A stretch of DNA of 64,000 nucleotides from Neovahlkampfia damariscottae (Eukaryota; Heterolobosea; Selenaionea; Neovahlkampfiida; Neovahlkampfiidae): assembly GCA_016618085.1 (NCBI GenBank), contig JABLTG010000086.1:20319-84318 (forward strand), written 5' to 3'. Positions 3,472 to 64,000 of the stretch are shown piece after piece (the stretch's first letter is position 1; every line of letters begins with the position of its first letter). Position numbers and translations under genes: made by a program. The notes beneath the pieces are model-generated. The model did no database searches. It was not told the DNA's origin and worked only from the letters and a program-made list of their open reading frames with translations.

Positions 3472-5590
3472 ATGGAAAAACCAAACTTGAAATCACTATT
3501 TGGAAATGTGGCAATTGAAGTAACAAAAGAACAAAAACCAAAAAAAGAAGAGTTATCAGAAACACAAAAAGAATACTTAAAAAAACCATTAGAGTATTTA
3601 GAAAAACTTTCTTCAACTAAAAATATTAACACAACGATAATATATCAAACTTTATGTGAGATATTCAATGACCTTCTTGAATTCAAACAAAAATCAAAAT
3701 TCTTAAAAATTTCAATTGAAGATCAAAAATTTCAAAAAAGAGTTCTTCAAACAAGTTCTTCAACAGTTAAATTATTGGAATATATAGGTAGAAAAAATAT
3801 GTATTAAATGACAAAAAGGTTATAATTTTGAAGAAATTATTGATGAAGAAGATAATGTTGAAGGGTTTTTTATTTTATCAAAAATTGATAACGAGAATTT
3901 AGAATTGATTAAAAATGAAATTCAAAATAGAGTTTATTATTATATTATTTTAATTTTAAAAGCTTGATATTTCTTTAGCAGCAAGAAAAAATTGGAAAAA
4001 TGCTATTTCAAGTATTAAAACTGTTCACAGTATGAAAAATTTAATGAGAAAAATATCATCAGATAATTTCAAAAAAGAAGAAAAAAAAGAAGAAAAAACA
4101 GTTGAAATTGATGGAAAAATTCTAAAAAGACCGATTTTAAGAACATTTCATGTCAGTAAAGATGATGCAACTTTTGAAGTTTCTGAAAAATATGAAGTGA
4201 AAAAAGTGTTAGGATTCGGTGAGAGAAATGAAAAATTAAGTTTATAATTAGGTGCTTATGGTGTTGTAGTGTAAGTAGTTTCAAATTTTCAATAATTTTA
4301 GTTTGGCTTATGGTAAGAAATCAATGTTGAAATTTTTTAATTTTTTAAAAGATCATGAACTGAAAAAGAATGTTGCCATCAAGAAAATATTTAATACATT
4401 TCAACAAGATATTGAATATCAAAAAAGAATTTTAAGAGAAATTAAATTGATGATTCATTTCAATGGACATCCAAATATTGTTAACATTTTAGATTTAATT
4501 CCACCAAAAAATTTTGATGAATTTAATGATATTTATATTGTTATGGATTGTATGGATCAAGATTTGGCAAAACTAATCAAAGAAAGAAAACCGTACAATG
4601 AAGAAGTGACTAAGAAATTATTTTATCAAATACTACTTGGTTTGTATACAATTCATAATTCTTTTGTTTTGCATAGAGATATTAAACCAAGTAATATATT
4701 GATTGATACAAAGAATGAAAATCAATGTAGAATTTGTGGTAAATTTAACTCAAATATAATTTTGATTTTTTAGATTTTGGTTTAAGCAGAGGAATGGATG
4801 CCACTGTTGATCCTCATATGAGTACTTTATATGTTGTCACTAGATATTATAGATCACCTGAATTGTGTTGTGATTATGAAAAATCTTATAAACCATTAGA
4901 TATGGTAATTTTTATTCATTAATAAATTAGTGGTCAATGGGATGCGTTTTTGCAGAAATGCTTCAAAAACCAACTAGAAAACCTTTATTTCCAGGTGATT
5001 CAACTTTAAAACAATTAAAATTGATTCTTGATATTTGTGGTAAACAAGATGAAGAAAATGTGAAAGGTGTTGAAAATGCAAAACTATTTGTTAAGGAAAA
5101 TGGAAAAAAAGATAAAGTAGTGTGGGAAAAATATCCAAAATTTAGACATGTCAAAAATGAAGGTAAAATTTTCCAATCAAAATATTCATTCTTTTTTAAA
5201 GATGGTTTGATAATTATTTTTGAAATAATTTCTATTAGCTTATGATCTTTTGGATAAAATGTTAGAATTCAATCCAGAAAAAAGAATGAGTAAGATCGTA
5301 GTTTTTTCACCAATCCATTCTTTTTAGCAATTGAAGATGCATTGAAACATAATTACTTCAAAGATATTTATTCTGAAAGTGATTTGAAGTTATTTGATAA
5401 ATTTGATTATAGATTTGATGATTCTGTGACTTTAGAACAAGATCCAGATTATGTCAAAAGTGAGTCTTATTTCATTCACTGATATTTATTTGTAGAAATG
5501 TTGTATGATTCTATTATGAACTTTAATAAAGAATTGGGTATTGGTGGAGATGCATTAATTAGTGAACTTGATGCAGTTGATGTGGAATAA
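3472..5590 (+). CDS. PUB-domain MAP-kinase-like protein kinase
   Basis: A serine/threonine kinase of the MAPK/CMGC group with an unusual N-terminus. About ten exons are joined by introns of 30-40 nt. Residues about 35-150 match the PUB (PUG) domain of PNGase, UBXD1 and HOIP, which binds the C-terminus of the AAA ATPase p97/VCP: a helical stretch, then LLEYIGY and a hydrophobic FFIL strand. The kinase domain follows after a charged linker: glycine loop GFGAYGVVV, VAIKK lysine, HRDIKPSN catalytic loop, [14 protein letters not shown] and [10 protein letters not shown]. The activation loop has T-L-Y where classical MAPKs have TEY, TGY or TPY. An insertion lies between the glycine loop and the lysine. 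The start is the ATG at 3472, 23 bp after a CCAAT. Kinase assignment is firm; the PUB call is good but should be profile-tested. Confidence 0.85.
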
Positions 5591-5793: not shown

Positions 5794-8700
5794 TTATTTT
5801 TTGTTGATTAATCTTCTTGTCAAAATACCACTTCTATTCCCAGAATATAAAAATTCTGATTCAAATTGACAAAATGTCATTGATTTTTTATGATTTAAAT
5901 CTTCCAACATTTTAAATGTATTACAATCCCAAATTTTAATATGATTATCATAAGATGCAGAAATGAAATAAGTACTATCAGGTCCAATTTCTAATCCTCT
6001 AATTTTATCTGTATGAGCACGAATCACATTTGATATTTTTCTTTGTCTCATATCAAAGATTGAAATTTCTCCTTTTTTTCCACCAATTAATAAAGTTTGA
6101 TTTCTTGAACAATAACAAATCTTTCTTGGATCTGATTCGACAGTTGTTTCAATGATATTATATTCTTGTTCTGGTAATAGTAAATCCCAAACTCTTAATT
6201 GTTTTGAATGACCAGAAGTACCAACTGTTGCGACAAGTGATCCAGAATCAATAAAACAAAAATCATAACATTTTGATGTATGACTTGGAATACTAACAAA
6301 TGGTCTTAAAGAAGTATGTGATGAATCAAATTTCCATAAATGAGTATGACCTGATTTATCAGAAGCACCAAATTTATATCCTAAAGGTTCAAAATTTAAA
6401 CTTGTAATTCTTGGATGTTTTGGAGTTCTATAAGTTCTAAGTGGTGAAACTTCACCAAATTTCCAAAGATGAACAGAACCATCATGACCACCTGATAAAT
6501 AAACAGGTAAAAAAGGATGTGATTCTAATTCATGTACATTCATATCATGAGTTATTTTCTTTTCATTTGATAAAGAAAATGAAGTTCCAGGTGATGGTGA
6601 AGGATTATGACTATGTGATTTTCTAATTGGTTTTAAATTTGTACTTGAACCAAATCCAATCAATCTTGATTTATCAATTAAAGATGGTGTTTTAGGTGAA
6701 TTAATTTCAATATCTTGTAATTTAATTTGAGTTAAGAAATTATTAAAATCAAAATTTGAACTTGTTGGTGTTCTTGTGACTGAATATTGATAAGAATCTT
6801 GATCATCTGTTAATGAAATTTTATCAAATCTATGTAAAGAATCTTCCCAATTTGACATTTCATCATCTAATAAAATATCTAATGCTTCATTTCTTCTTCT
6901 ATATTTGATACTATGATCAATATTAATTTCTTTGATTCCTTTTTTAGTTGAATAAGCAAGATATTGAGGATTGAGTTTATTAATACAAACTGATCTAATT
7001 TTATCTTTTCCATGAACCATTTCAATTTCTTCTGAAAATTTTGATGTTTCTTCTTCTTCTTCAACTTCAGTTCCAATTGAAAAAAATTCTTCACTACTTT
7101 TTTGTTTGATAATGAAATCCCAAAGTGTTTGACATTTTGTATTTGATTTGAATGTTTCCACTTTTTTAGTAACTTCATTAATATCACTTAAAGTAATAGC
7201 AATGGTTGATTTTGTTTTCAAACCAAGAGATAATTCAGGTATTGCTGAAATAATATCTTTCATATTTTTCTTTTTTGTTTTTTTAACATTATAACCAATA
7301 TTTGATGTTTTTCTTCCACGTTGAGGTGCACTTGAAATAGTTGAAACAATATTTTTAATTTTTTGAGAGCTAAATGTAATATCTCTAAATTTAGGAGCCA
7401 TTTCACCATTTGTATGTGAAACAACTTCAACTTCTTTGAAAGATAATCTTTTATGATGATATTGAAACCATAATCCAACAGAAGTCAATGCAGTTGAAGC
7501 TAACAATGAAAATTCTGTTTTCTTTTGTTGTTTAAATGAAGAATGAATATTTGATAAATCAACTAAACTTGTAGTTTTTCTAATTTTATATCCTTTTTCA
7601 AAAAATTCTTTTACATTTGATCCAAATGTATAAACTATTAATCCATTCAAAATTTCCCAATTATGTTCATCTTTCAATTTCAAAATTGCAGCGTCTGAAA
7701 TTGATCTTGTTTTTTTATGATCACCACCATAGGTTTTAAAATTTTTGTTTTCTTCTTCTAATTGTTGTTGAATTTCAACTTCTTCATTTAATTGTAAATC
7801 TTCTTTTTTATAAGCTTCATAGAATTGTGGAAGATTTTCCAAGACATCAAAAATGATATTAGAATCATCTCTTGGATTTACAATAGATCCACTAACAGTT
7901 AACCTTGCTGATCCTTTTTTCAATATTTTTTCATGTAATGAGAATAGTGAACATAAACCAAGAAAATCTCTTTTTGACCAACCTGAAATAAATAAAGCAA
8001 TATAAAAAGTAGCTTTATAATCAACTAAACTTGATTGATTAAATGAAGGATAAATATCAATAAATCTTGAATAACAAATTAAAAATTGTTGAATAAATTG
8101 ATCTAAAATTTTTGATTCATTTAAAGTTAAAGGTTGTTCAATAACTACTGAAAGAAGTGTTACAACTTGATGTGATTCAAAATCTAAAATTTCTTTCAAA
8201 TCATCATCATCATGTATTAATGCTTGAGATAATAAAAGACCATTCAAACTACAATAATGTTGTAATCCTGAAATAATCAATGATTTGTTCATTTCAAAAA
8301 TAGAACAGAAATGATCAATTTCATCATGAATTCTTTTTTTTTCTTTCTTCCAAATTTCAGGAGTATATTTTTCAATTGTTAAATCATGTAATTGTTGACA
8401 CATAATTGAAAGAATTAAATTTAAAATTGTTGCTTGAAACATTTTTTTTCTTTCTTCAATTGAAACTGATACTTGTCTTTTTTTCTTTTTTGATTCAGAT
8501 TTAGTTGAATCTTTAATAGTTAAATCAGTTTCTCTAAAATTATCAAATCCACCAAATGAACCAAAATCAATTTGTCCTGAAAATAGATTTTCATCTTGTT
8601 TTTTTAATGTTGACATTTTACTTGTTCCTTCATCTTTTTCTTTGATTTTTTTGTAATATTTCATTGCAAACAAGTAAGATCCAATTTGAGAATAAAAATG

Positions 8701-56999: not shown

Positions 57000-59460
57000 A
57001 TCCTTGAAATATTTGATGTTGTCTTAAAATTAAGGTTTAAAATTGAATGTAAAGTTTATTCTTGCTTCGTTTCCTAAATCAAGACAATTGGCTAATTCAA
57101 AGTATCCATAAAAATACTATTTCATTAGTCTACTGCATCTAATATAATGATTGGTCCTTAAATTCTCCTGGTTCATTTCTATAAATTGTTTAACAACTTG
57201 TTAGCAACAGGAATTACAGGACTTATATTACACTTGAAATACTGCACGTATGCTAGCCAATGAGCATCTGCAAATATAGACCAATCATAATAAACCTTTA
57301 CCTTCTAAGTAAGAGTGAGTATGAATACCCCATATTCTCTTTCTCTTTCACAACTCGTCAAATTCCTCCAATTCTCTGAAAATTTTGTAACTTCAGTTTT
57401 TATAACTTTTCAGAGTATTCTAATGAGTTGTCAGAGTTTTATAAATATCCTCTCTCAATCTATATTCTACTGCCATATTTGACTCTTGTAATGTCATAAT
57501 TACATATTTCTGTTCATTGATTTTAGTTTTTCTTTAGTAAAATAATTTTGGATATTTTATATTCTTTAAATGTTTCATGGGAAATTTTCTTTTTAAAATT
57601 ACTCTCTCTTCTTCGATAATATAGTATTCTCTATCTTGTTTAATTATCTTTGCTGGTCCTTCATATTTGATGTTTAATTTATCATAACTTCCTTCTACAT
57701 CTCCAATCCTTTTATAATAAACAATAGTTCTTGGTGGTAATTGATGATTATCATTTAAAATAATCCCACTTCTTACAGATTTATGGACTAAACCGTCATA
57801 AACTTGTTCTCTATCATCATTCTGTTGATTTGTTTTAGCTATTCTTTCTGCAATGAATGGATATACTCTCTTTTGAAATTCAAATATGTTCTTTATATGT
57901 TCTTCTATTTCATCAATTACACTTTTTATTCTTTCATTATAATATCTTGATAATCAATCTCCTGGTTTAGATGTCTTCCGTGAAATAAGAAAAATGAAGT
58001 TGTATTGAAAGTACTAACTGGTCTTATATTTAATATGTATTGGATAAATTCTAATAGTTGTTCTACATTTAAATTCAATTGTTATTATCTTTTTAAATAA
58101 TTCCTTCACTGATTGAACTTTTCTTTCTGCTAATTTATTTGGTGAATATGAAGTTGTTAAATAATGTTTTACTAAAAATCGTTGTTTAATTTCTTTAAGT
58201 ATTTTTGTATTGAATTTTCTATTTGTAGCTATTGCCTTTGGGAATCCATATTCAAACAATTGAAATAAAAATGCATCTGCAATTCCTTCAGATGTTTTAT
58301 TAACTATCCTTGTTAAAATCACATATCTTGTAAATGTATCTACTGTTAATAATACCGAAAAATCATAGTTTTTAAAACTTAATAAGTCCATTGCCCATAT
58401 CTGATTTGGTTCATTTGCAGTATAGTGTTTGGTGTTGTTCATCATTTGAAAATCATCTTTTACTCTATTCAACTTCACACATGTTTTGCATTCTTTCATT
58501 TGATTTATAATTAACTTAATTATATCTCCTTTTCTTAATGGTACATCATCTTCCTCCAAATCTTCAATATCTCTTTTGAAATTCGTTTTAAAATGATGAT
58601 ATTGTTGATTGACTACCATGTATCGTGTTTGTGAGCAGTTTTGATTGCTTGCATCACTGCTTCAGACACAATGTTAATTTCGACTGTTTGATTTAAACGT
58701 GAGAGAATATCTGGGAACAAATTTCTAATTCCAGCCGCATGTATCACTTGCATCTTACCTAAAAATTCCGCAATAACATCAAAATATGATGCTATGTGTA
58801 TATTTTCATTATGCTGTTTGGTATTATTCAATAATGTTAAAAGAGCTGAATAGTCAGTATAGCACTTGAATCTTTTGTGTAGTAACAAATTTCTCTCTTT
58901 TTTTAATATGTAAGTTCTGGCCATGAATCTTTTGTTGAACATTTTGCTTTAAATCTTGAAGCTCTAATCGTGTTGGGATCTATTTGATTAACCAATTTGG
59001 TTTTCAAGTTTTCTGGCAGAAGTTCTTTTAATTCATTATACCATTCATCTTTCAAAATTTGATCATTCATATAGCTATTAAAATCTAAAAAGAATGTTCT
59101 AAATTTAAAAATGTCACCATCAAATCTTTGAACTTTTCCTTTTCTGCTTGCTTGTGATTTGATTGCTAATTCTTTTGCTCTTAATAAAATTTTTTCATTT
59201 GTCTCTTGTAACTTTTCATTATAAATTCTTTTTCTTTCAATTTCTTCTAAATATGTTTTATAATGTTTTAACTCTTCTTTATCTTCCATAGTCATACTCT
59301 TCTTAGCTTTTTCAATCTTATTGACTGGTACTGTTTTCATTTCCTCTACTAATGTTAAAAACAATTCTGATCTAGGAAATTCACATCCTTCATCACTTAA
59401 CTCCAATGTTTCTCTTATTTTTTCATTTGTGAATTCTTGAACTTGTTCTTTATACTTCAA
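57000..59460 (-). mobile_element. Decayed Ty3/gypsy-like LTR retroelement lacking reverse transcriptase
   Basis: Reading on the minus strand: a gag-like frame without an ATG (59460-58903; RFDGDIFKFRTFFLDF), then directly RNase H (58942-58613; KCYTDYSALLTLLNN, ending GIRNLFPDILSRL), then integrase. Integrase has the zinc-binding region (HH...CKTC), a core with WAMDLLSF (first Asp), TNRKF where TDxG is expected, and LAERKVQS (Glu), and after a break near 57960 a GPY/F-type C-terminus (KYEGPAKIIKQDREYYII). Protease and reverse transcriptase are missing, and frames break at least three times. A purine-rich tract (57327-57349 on this strand) could be the priming tract, and DNA down to about 57000 could be the 3' LTR; no second LTR is in the window. 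Confidence 0.75.
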
Positions 59461-59490
59461 GATTATCCAATCACATCACGATTTGTTTCA

Positions 59491-62844: not shown

Positions 62845-63247
62845 TGAAGCCTTTATTTCCCTTCGTAAATTATCTGGTTGGTTCTATGAGATCTCAATTT
62901 TATTGGACAATTGTTTCTTCAGCTTTGGATCCGAAGGAGACTGATCACCTCATCTTTGAGTTCGAATTTAGAAGAAGCTGTTAGGTAAGAAAAAGTACCA
63001 TTTCATCATTGTAGAATCAAAACAGAGAATGATATTCAATTTCATAGGAAGATGGAAATTCGATTGTTGGTAGAGATGTTTGTTACTTCTTCTCAACTGA
63101 ATGACATTGAAGGAGCAACTTGGAATGTACAATTGAAAGAATGCACGTCCGAGAGAGAATGCAAACTTGAAGGTCAAACTGAATCGGAATATTTGATTTT
63201 TCCGTTACAAAGTGACTATTCGGAATCGTTTGTGAACTATATATAGA
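62845..63247 (+). other. Possible small spliced ORF next to the recombinase
   Basis: An intron with good ends (GTAAGAAAA at about 62982, ATTTCATAG at about 63049) joins two frames to a product of about 100 residues ending at 63246. No convincing ATG precedes the first exon in the required frame; the second exon alone could start at 63052 (MEIRLLVEMF). The product is not recognised. GC content and codon use begin to resemble the recombinase rather than the housekeeping genes. Confidence 0.3.
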
Positions 63248-63322
63248 TTTTCTAAATTCCAAAAAATTATAAATGGATGGAAAAATCAGAAAAGACGCCA
63301 AGAAAACAGATAGAGCAAGCTG

Positions 63323-64000
63323 ATGAGCAATAATGATCAATGCAATGAAAAGTATATCACCAGTAAAAAAATCAGAGAACAGTAGGAGTTTGTAATTCAA
63401 CACTCAAACGATGGGCAAATGAAGGAAAAATTAGTAGTATCCGAACAATCGGAAACAAAAGGCTCTATGGATGTGATGACATTAGAAGAGTCTTTGGAGT
63501 TGAAAGTATTGAAAAGAAAAAGAGAAAGTTATGTTATGCCAGAGTTAGTAGTCAAAAACAAAAAGGGGACCTCGAAAGACAAGTGGAAGACCTCCGAAGA
63601 GAATACCCAAATCATGAAATCATCCAAGACATTGGAAGTGGTGTCAACTTCGAAAGGAAAGGATTTAAAACCTTGGTGGACCAAATCATGTCTGGAAATA
63701 TCTCGGAGCTTGTCATCAGTCATCGAGACCGACTTGTTAGATTTGGATACCCACTCCTTGAACAAATATGCCAAAAGTTTGAGTGCAAAATCGTGGTTCA
63801 ACATAAAGATGTCAACTCCGATCCAACCAACGATCTTGCCGAAGACTTATTATCCATCGTTACAGTTTTTACCGCCAAACATCATGGACTTAGAGCAGGA
63901 GAAAAGAAAAGGAAAAGAAAAGAAGCAGAAATCATCGAATGCAACAAAAAAAGTAAAGTTAGAAAAGGAAGTAATAAAGAAGGAACCAGCAGACAAATGC
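63323..64000 (+). CDS. IS607-family serine recombinase (TnpA-like), runs off the edge
   Basis: An N-terminal MerR-like helix-turn-helix (EKYITSKKIREQ, then CNSTLKRWANEGK and IRTIGNKRLY) precedes a resolvase catalytic domain. The active-site serine is in KLCYARVSSQKQKGDLERQ (about 63527-63580), and the supporting arginines are in ELVISHRDRLVRFG. EDLLSIVTVFTAKHHGLRAG near the end is the helix typical of IS607 enzymes. The two parts of the HTH are in different frames: one base seems missing near 63380. About 226 residues are visible with no stop before 64000, so it should end just outside. IS607 elements lack inverted repeats and carry tnpB, or in eukaryotes Fanzor, after tnpA. GC content is clearly higher than in the rest of the window, a sign of transfer. 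Confidence 0.85.

Follow-up and report, generated by a model that had tools for sequence, protein, structure and literature searches.

An IS607-type element at the end of the contig

The window analysed here, a stretch of 64,000 nucleotides from the Neovahlkampfia damariscottae assembly (20.4 Mb in 307 contigs), spans C292:20319-84318, its last base being that of the contig. It contains genes for Vps16, separase, condensin subunit 1 and the proteasome, which indicate a eukaryotic genome, as the first-pass annotation had supposed. Two minus-strand stretches (58014-58661 and 58903-59475) may be a retroelement remnant, with an integrase core just under the Pfam cut-off. Positions 63179-64000, the last part of the window, form the left end of an IS607-type element with the following features:

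63179..63181 (+): left junction, with host C at 63179 and the TG crossover core at 63180-63181
63182..63322 (+): 5' non-coding left end common to the copies, with TATATATA at 63238-63245
63323..64000 (+): tnpA, the gene of an IS607-type serine recombinase with HTH and catalytic domains, which carries a frameshift in the HTH region and is truncated where the contig stops
63535..63552 (+): YARVSS catalytic-serine motif in the tnpA frame, whose Tyr-Ala codons hold ATG 63536 of the Fanzor frame
63536..64000 (+): apparent N-terminal extension of Fanzor2/TnpB in the +1 frame of tnpA, where the frame is open over 63386-64000
63671..63685 (+): PWWTK, first conserved extension motif, a helix in AF2 models of relatives
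63791..63802 (+): SWFN, second conserved extension motif, a strand in AF2 models of relatives
63899..63925 (+): purine-rich stretch encoding basic peptides in both frames (KKRKRK in tnpA, EKRKGKEKK in Fanzor)

The sequence TATATATA is a possible promoter, and the two basic peptides resemble nuclear localization signals and might serve a nuclear role.

The assignment of an IS607-type recombinase to this edge, proposed earlier from the sequence, is borne out by profile comparison. The translation of 63367-63999 matched the NCBIfam model NF033518 (transpos_IS607) best of all models (3.7e-51, 173.3 bits against a cut-off of 110), and this specific match, rather than a tree (the tree described below is of the nuclease), sets the protein apart from other serine recombinases. 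The same translation matched Pfam Resolvase at 4.8e-18, HTH_17 at 0.00044 (below the cut-off for that model) and the solved catalytic domains of IS607/ISC1904 recombinases at best 1.6e-29. The predicted MerR-like HTH and resolvase domains are both recognized, as MerR_1 and Resolvase, in the unbroken gene of a sister copy (L013, in contig C3), and the second of the two motifs initially reported, HRDRLVR, lies at 63721-63741. The open reading frame indeed starts at ATG 63323, but meets a stop after 'KKIREQ' in the HTH region, with the remainder in another frame, so that the window copy looks disabled.

Sister copies, element ends and the nuclease gene

The genome holds more than 20 sister insertions of this element. 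The tnpA region had 28 DNA matches (27 including the 5' part) and the 3' region 24 matches across 23 contigs, and 18 of the 20 element stretches examined lie at a contig end. Targeting of telomeres was considered and rejected: the 5' parts at contig ends face outward and are matched by 3' parts facing inward at the ends of other contigs, and assembly breaks at repeats are therefore the simpler reading.

One complete element was found, in L013, where it comprises 2,111 bases from the TG at 4304 to the TG at 6414 and an unbroken tnpA of 243 open codons. At 19 left junctions the shared sequence begins at (C)TGAA (without the C in L019), the flanking base before TG being C in 18 of 19 and that C being preceded by A in 13 of 19. 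TG is the last shared dinucleotide at all nine right junctions examined, within the terminal sequence GTGGGTG (GTAGGTG in L033). The flanks outside TG differ among copies at these 19 left and nine right junctions, and both ends of a single copy were seen in L013. Judged from these junctions, the crossover core is TG; the same dinucleotide stands at both ends with no target duplication, in keeping with the pattern described for IS607. A search of the assembly for an empty allele found none. Conservation is lower in the 5' non-coding end, with 113 identities, 23 mismatches and additional gaps between L013 and the window, than in the 3' end.

In two insertions, one of them in a SIR2 gene, the left end (window 63180-63247; L012:4175-4241, the copy in contig C303) adds a similar short tail, ESEYLIFPLQSDHSESFVNYI or a close variant, to the interrupted host ORF (open codons: 64 and 252). 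We rejected these as functional in-frame host fusions and attribute them to chance, since 17 of the 19 insertions have fewer than 30 open codons in that frame. A host ORF of 860 residues with a Spore_III_AA-like ATPase domain (L013:6551-9133, minus strand) adjoins the complete insertion.

Downstream of tnpA, L013:5138-6352 contains 404 open codons with Pfam Cas12f1-like TNB, OrfB_IS605 and HTH_OrfB domains. The encoded nuclease displays IASIDPGVRTF, TEEYTSKTCGKC and KADRDLNAARNI, corresponding to a RuvC D-E-D triad, a zinc finger, a DPG motif in RuvC-I and an alternative glutamate before the zinc finger. The combination of DPG with this alternative glutamate has been described as a Fanzor fingerprint (PMC10711439), and its presence in L013 agrees with alignment to relatives. 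The best solved relative of the nuclease is the mimivirus Fanzor2 L79 (PDB 9b0l). By these sequence features, L013 represents a Fanzor2 in an IS607-type element of a eukaryote.

The window copy is cut before the nuclease core, which starts at IRLYP just beyond the window end. A second sister copy, C241, is identical to the window at 812 of 820 aligned bases and continues into the start of the Fanzor core, and it is because sister copies continue in this way into Fanzor2 that we assign a Fanzor to the window element. The junction of the Fanzor frame to the core is interrupted by a stop in L013 and open in C241, C250, C303 and C156. The expectation of a Fanzor beyond position 64000 is thus supported: a RuvC/TnpB-like gene adjoins tnpA in sister copies, and the suggested search for a RuvC-type D-E-D protein and a conserved 3' region found both in L013. 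The nuclease gene does more than follow tnpA, however, its frame apparently running through 63536-64000 as well.

Scans with single proteins recovered one relative of tnpA among viral contigs (L053, 41%), no relative of the nuclease there, and no relative among bacterial genome contigs. Scans with alignments recovered 40 loci in viral contigs and 279 relatives in bacterial genome contigs, the best 80 of these 279 being used. A nuclease tree of 114 rows, built by a quick method, places the family outside a starred clade of 65 rows, to which 57 of the 76 bacterial rows belong. It shares an unresolved fork with L79 and a viral-contig locus (L139), and several branches are long. That locus (L139:2198-3649) is a Fanzor2-like gene without tnpA in AT-rich surroundings on a viral contig of 174.8 kb; its four neighboring ORFs had no Pfam match, and so speak neither for nor against a giant-virus identity for the contig.

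The genome also contains a second Fanzor family (L055:3-1157; L056:1192-2196, minus strand; L057; L058), about 40% identical in the core, with at least 43 matches, most of them 93-99% identical, 40 of 131 candidates having been scored. Its members have DPG and a long N-terminal extension with KKRKLEE, and both right ends observed terminate in GATAGCGG; searches for tnpA at these loci gave no match.

Both genes of the element evolved under purifying selection, with dN/dS of about 0.12-0.25 wherever changes are numerous. For the non-overlapping part of tnpA, the window and L013 differ by a dS of 0.258 and a dN of 0.040 (ratio 0.16), and L013 gave ratios of 0.16 against C241 and 0.18 against C250; the value of 1.25 against C303 derives from six changes only, too few to judge. 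For tnpB, the ratios were 0.12-0.13 (L013 against C303, C250 and C156) and 0.17-0.25 in other pairs. These values indicate that both proteins kept working while the subfamilies diverged. The elements are also mosaic: L013 and L012 differ by a dS of 0.009 in tnpA and 0.50 in tnpB, so that copies seem to recombine, exchanging halves.

The copies might nonetheless be dead relics in which neither movement nor cutting occurs today, a reading that we consider possible but doubtful. None of the longer copies examined has both genes intact, each showing a stop or frame break in one of them: a stop where the Fanzor core begins in L013, stops inside the tnpA match of C303, C241, C292 (the window copy, itself frameshifted) and C250, and a frame break in the Fanzor of C156. 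Against this, many copies differ by only 1-3% across the 5' part, and wherever a comparison involves more than a handful of changes, dN/dS lies at 0.12-0.25 in either gene. In addition, no assembled sequence was found for the middle of the commonest subfamily, and intact copies may therefore have escaped notice.

The 3' end of the element is both conserved and structured. The last 210 bases of L013 have a folding z-score of -5.1. In a hairpin that overlaps the 3' end of tnpB (nine copies, eight distinct), four pairs have changed on both sides and kept pairing, all four in one helix and all from L014; shuffles gave a mean of 0.6 such changes, with none of 500 reaching four, and slid versions gave one at most. 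The 62-nucleotide non-coding 3' tail differs from L013 at 0-1 positions in seven of eight copies (five in L014), unlike the 3' part of tnpB, where dS against C263 is about 0.45. The loop AGACC could form three pairs with the terminal GGGU, a contact that does not vary among the copies. An Rfam search returned no family at gathering score. We regard the 3' end as a candidate, and likely, guide RNA.

A second reading frame within tnpA

The tnpB frame contains few stops where it runs through tnpA (two in L013 against 7.8 expected from synonymous shuffles, and one in the window against 5.5). We examined this depletion in 122 loci, of which 120 came from the alignment scans of bacterial genomes and viral contigs and the others were L053 and L054 (one of them phage). 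In 112 of the 122 a tnpA lies upstream on the same strand, and 80 were left after dropping those with identical or broken tnpA. The offset of tnpB relative to tnpA is +1 in 79 of these 80 loci and +2 in one (L088), whose +1 frame is free of stops. The 79 loci, 77 of which encode DPG, comprise 38 from cyanobacteria, 26 from viral contigs, 8 from Poribacteria, 4 from Pseudomonadota, 2 from Synergistota and 1 from a phage.

Across the last 360 nucleotides upstream of the core in these 79 loci, we observed five stops in the tnpB frame where 272 were expected. In successive 120-nucleotide bins upstream of the core the counts were 0, 0, 5, 18 and 70 (expected: 56.3, 116.9, 99.1, 44.2 and 57.1), while those in the other frame were 208, 201, 171, 218 and 123 (expected: 204.6, 205.3, 195.8, 201.9 and 124.1). 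The depletion is thus limited to one frame and ends about 480 nucleotides upstream of the core. With one locus taken per cluster, the last 360 bases contained 4 stops against 182.2 expected (49 loci), 3 against 111.0 (28 loci) and 0 against 34.9 (the 12 most divergent loci).

Other IS607 elements behave differently. Eleven tnpA genes served as controls, drawn from 10 plasmid records (12 taken up of 225 with a tnpA match, leaving aside the Paraclostridium, Campylobacter, Helicobacter and Mycobacterium plasmid matches) and from the second gene pair of L053, a non-DPG pair that is counted both among the 79 loci and among the controls. Over the last 400 bases these 11 genes contain 64 stops in the +1 frame against 68.1 expected, and so exhibit no depletion; their +2 frame contains 79 against 94.9, two of the loci being low individually (p 0.003 and 0.02). 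L053, a non-DPG type among the 79, likewise lacks depletion (11 stops against 12.5 expected). This viral contig carries two adjacent IS607 elements that differ in type (L053:2471-5444). Among the other IS607 elements, eight have a tnpB; the genes overlap by 4-17 nucleotides in seven and are separated by a gap in one, and the tnpB frame is +2 in five and +1 in three.

The +1 frame also retains particular residues. In 71 rows (67 of the 79 loci and four copies from this genome), tryptophan occupies two +1 columns in 70 and 71 rows, where synonymous codon choice would predict 15.1 and 18.1. Serine and leucine occupy two further columns in 71 and 70 of the 71, at positions where tnpA varies among hydrophobic residues, and the residue following SW is F in 68 rows and Y in three.

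An extension profile built from 74 of the 79 loci, applied to a set of about 15 targets, found the copies from this genome (window, 4.2e-39) and the tnpA-less viral locus L139 (4.6e-10). It also found five cyanobacterial loci (L106, L111, L128, L093 and L064) in which tnpA is interrupted by stops and the extension is still open. A 64-row profile aligned through SW[FY] into the mimivirus protein L79 from its residue 77, with the YW motif region outside the alignment; that piece alone scored 16.5 bits, whereas the best of the 497 shuffles reported, out of 500, reached 7.2. An earlier profile of 13 rows did not find L79. A kinship of the second Fanzor family with the overprinted extension was considered and found no support (E 7.3, -1.9 bits).

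AF2 modeling of L139 (64 rows: 63 of 68 picked, plus L139) predicted a helix at the YW motif (pLDDT 85) and a strand at SWF (57-63); that of the cyanobacterial locus L103 (61 rows) gave 74-75 for the helix block and 47-58 for the strand. Both have low-confidence links, and most of the extension is modeled at low confidence.

We believe that the best explanation for these observations, with a probability of roughly 85%, is that the window ends in a eukaryotic IS607/Fanzor2 element in which a Fanzor2 extension of about 120 residues is overprinted, in the +1 frame, on the catalytic domain of tnpA. Within the window this extension appears to occupy 63536-64000, with its expression and activity being predictions from sequence.

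The open +1 frame might instead serve a TnpA-TnpB fusion made by ribosomal frameshifting, with no independently started TnpB. Such a fusion would suit the extent of the frame, which opens close to where the catalytic domain begins and in most loci continues into TnpB uninterrupted, and would suit as well the lack of a start codon universal to the relatives examined: an ATG inside the Tyr-Ala codons of YARVSS is present in 24 of the 65 relatives with that motif, while 14 of the 79 have no match to it. We regard the fusion as unlikely, because the extension is retained in loci where tnpA is dead or missing and nothing is left to fuse.

A more conventional account, and one we find quite improbable, is that this is an ordinary IS607/Fanzor2 element whose Fanzor starts at the core, the open frame being a by-product of shared ancestry, codon usage or constraint on tnpA. 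The related loci are indeed non-independent. The similarity of +1-frame residues exceeds shuffles with a z-score of 50, but a control frame also reaches 20, so that residue similarity is inflated by ancestry; we rely instead on stops, tryptophans and tnpA-less loci. In the family of this genome, +1 residues outside the motifs change freely. Over the overlap, the window and L013 gave a ratio of 0.27 when read in the tnpA frame, as compared with 0.44 for the tnpB frame and 6.6 for the third, and the tnpB-frame ratio across the family is 0.35-0.46; for the +1 frame over tnpA, three comparisons gave 0.70-0.86 and two with few changes gave 0.25 and 2.87, values from which residue-level constraint is not clear. 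Against a by-product speak the restriction of the depletion to a single frame, its end about 480 nucleotides upstream, the 12 most divergent loci (no stops where 34.9 are expected) and the 11 other IS607 tnpA genes, which do not show it. The motifs of the +1 frame, moreover, outlive tnpA.

Finally, the suspicion that the window holds a stray serine recombinase or resolvase unrelated to any Fanzor, prompted by the lack of a visible nuclease core within the window alone, is refuted by the match to an IS607-specific model far above its cut-off and by the sister copies that run on into Fanzor2.

Proposed function and relation to known systems

By analogy with the known families, TnpA would excise and insert the element by exchange at the TG dinucleotide. 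Fanzor2, guided by an RNA that comprises the element's 3' end and adjoining DNA, would cut either the site left vacant or a homologous site lacking the element, next to (A)CTG, a candidate TAM read from 19 left flanks only. Repair of the break from a copy still holding the element would then copy it back. The extension is probably an arm that packs onto the nuclease, and its frame might be translated by leaky scanning or from a second transcript, with ATG 63536 as a candidate start. More broadly, we consider it likely that the extensions of Fanzor2 and of prokaryotic DPG-type proteins were born by overprinting on tnpA, that an arm comprising the YW helix and SWF strand was kept after tnpA was lost, and that eukaryotes express both nested frames. 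Under this origin, recombinase and nuclease would share one stretch of DNA and would form one unit of inheritance.

Fanzor nucleases are under study as genome editors. If the proposed overprinting is correct, construct design, start-site annotation and the account of Fanzor origins would all change, and a TnpB annotated from its IRLYP core would be truncated. Retention of a dual-coded overlap of about 360-400 nucleotides across bacteria, viral contigs and a protist would help to explain the linkage of tnpA to tnpB in this clade. A multi-copy IS607/Fanzor2 family with past purifying selection on both genes would also offer a natural system for studying the role of Fanzor2 in persistence in eukaryotes.

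That eukaryotic and viral IS607 elements carry Fanzor2 is already established (PMC3627910), and IS607 orfs have been stated to 'often overlap' (PMC6188088). The overprinting of an extension on tnpA may be new. In the literature searched, of which coverage was partial, we found no statement that the N-terminal region of Fanzor2 or TnpB overprints tnpA, and the main text of PMC10711439 contains neither 'overlap' nor 'N-terminal'; this silence is weak evidence of novelty.

Compared with other IS607 elements, for example one with a GG core (PMC6188088), the element described here has the same domain order, a dinucleotide core and no duplications. It differs from them in the overlap, which in seven of the eight others with a tnpB amounts to 4-17 nucleotides, with undepleted +1 stops in the 11 tnpA genes. 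A closer counterpart is the cyanobacterial 'pro-Fanzor' IS607 (PMC10711439), in which tnpA is followed by an overlapping tnpB of the DPG/alternative-glutamate type with the same +1 overlap and motifs; that element is prokaryotic, whereas the family in this genome falls, in the quick tree, outside the 65-row clade of most bacterial rows. The mimivirus Fanzor2 L79 (9b0l) is the best fold match of the L139 model, at 24% identity in the fold alignment, and shares with the nuclease described here a RuvC domain with a zinc finger and, in its N-terminal region, SW[FY]. Among protists, NlovFz2 of Naegleria lovaniensis is an RNA-guided Fanzor2 with the TAM CCG, as compared with our candidate (A)CTG (PMC10432273). 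The N-terminal region of NlovFz2 has been described as unique and disordered over 96 residues, and a disordered N-terminal region of 61 residues has been described for MmeFz2 (PMC10432273). We predict that the 96 residues of NlovFz2 are homologous to the overprinted extension.
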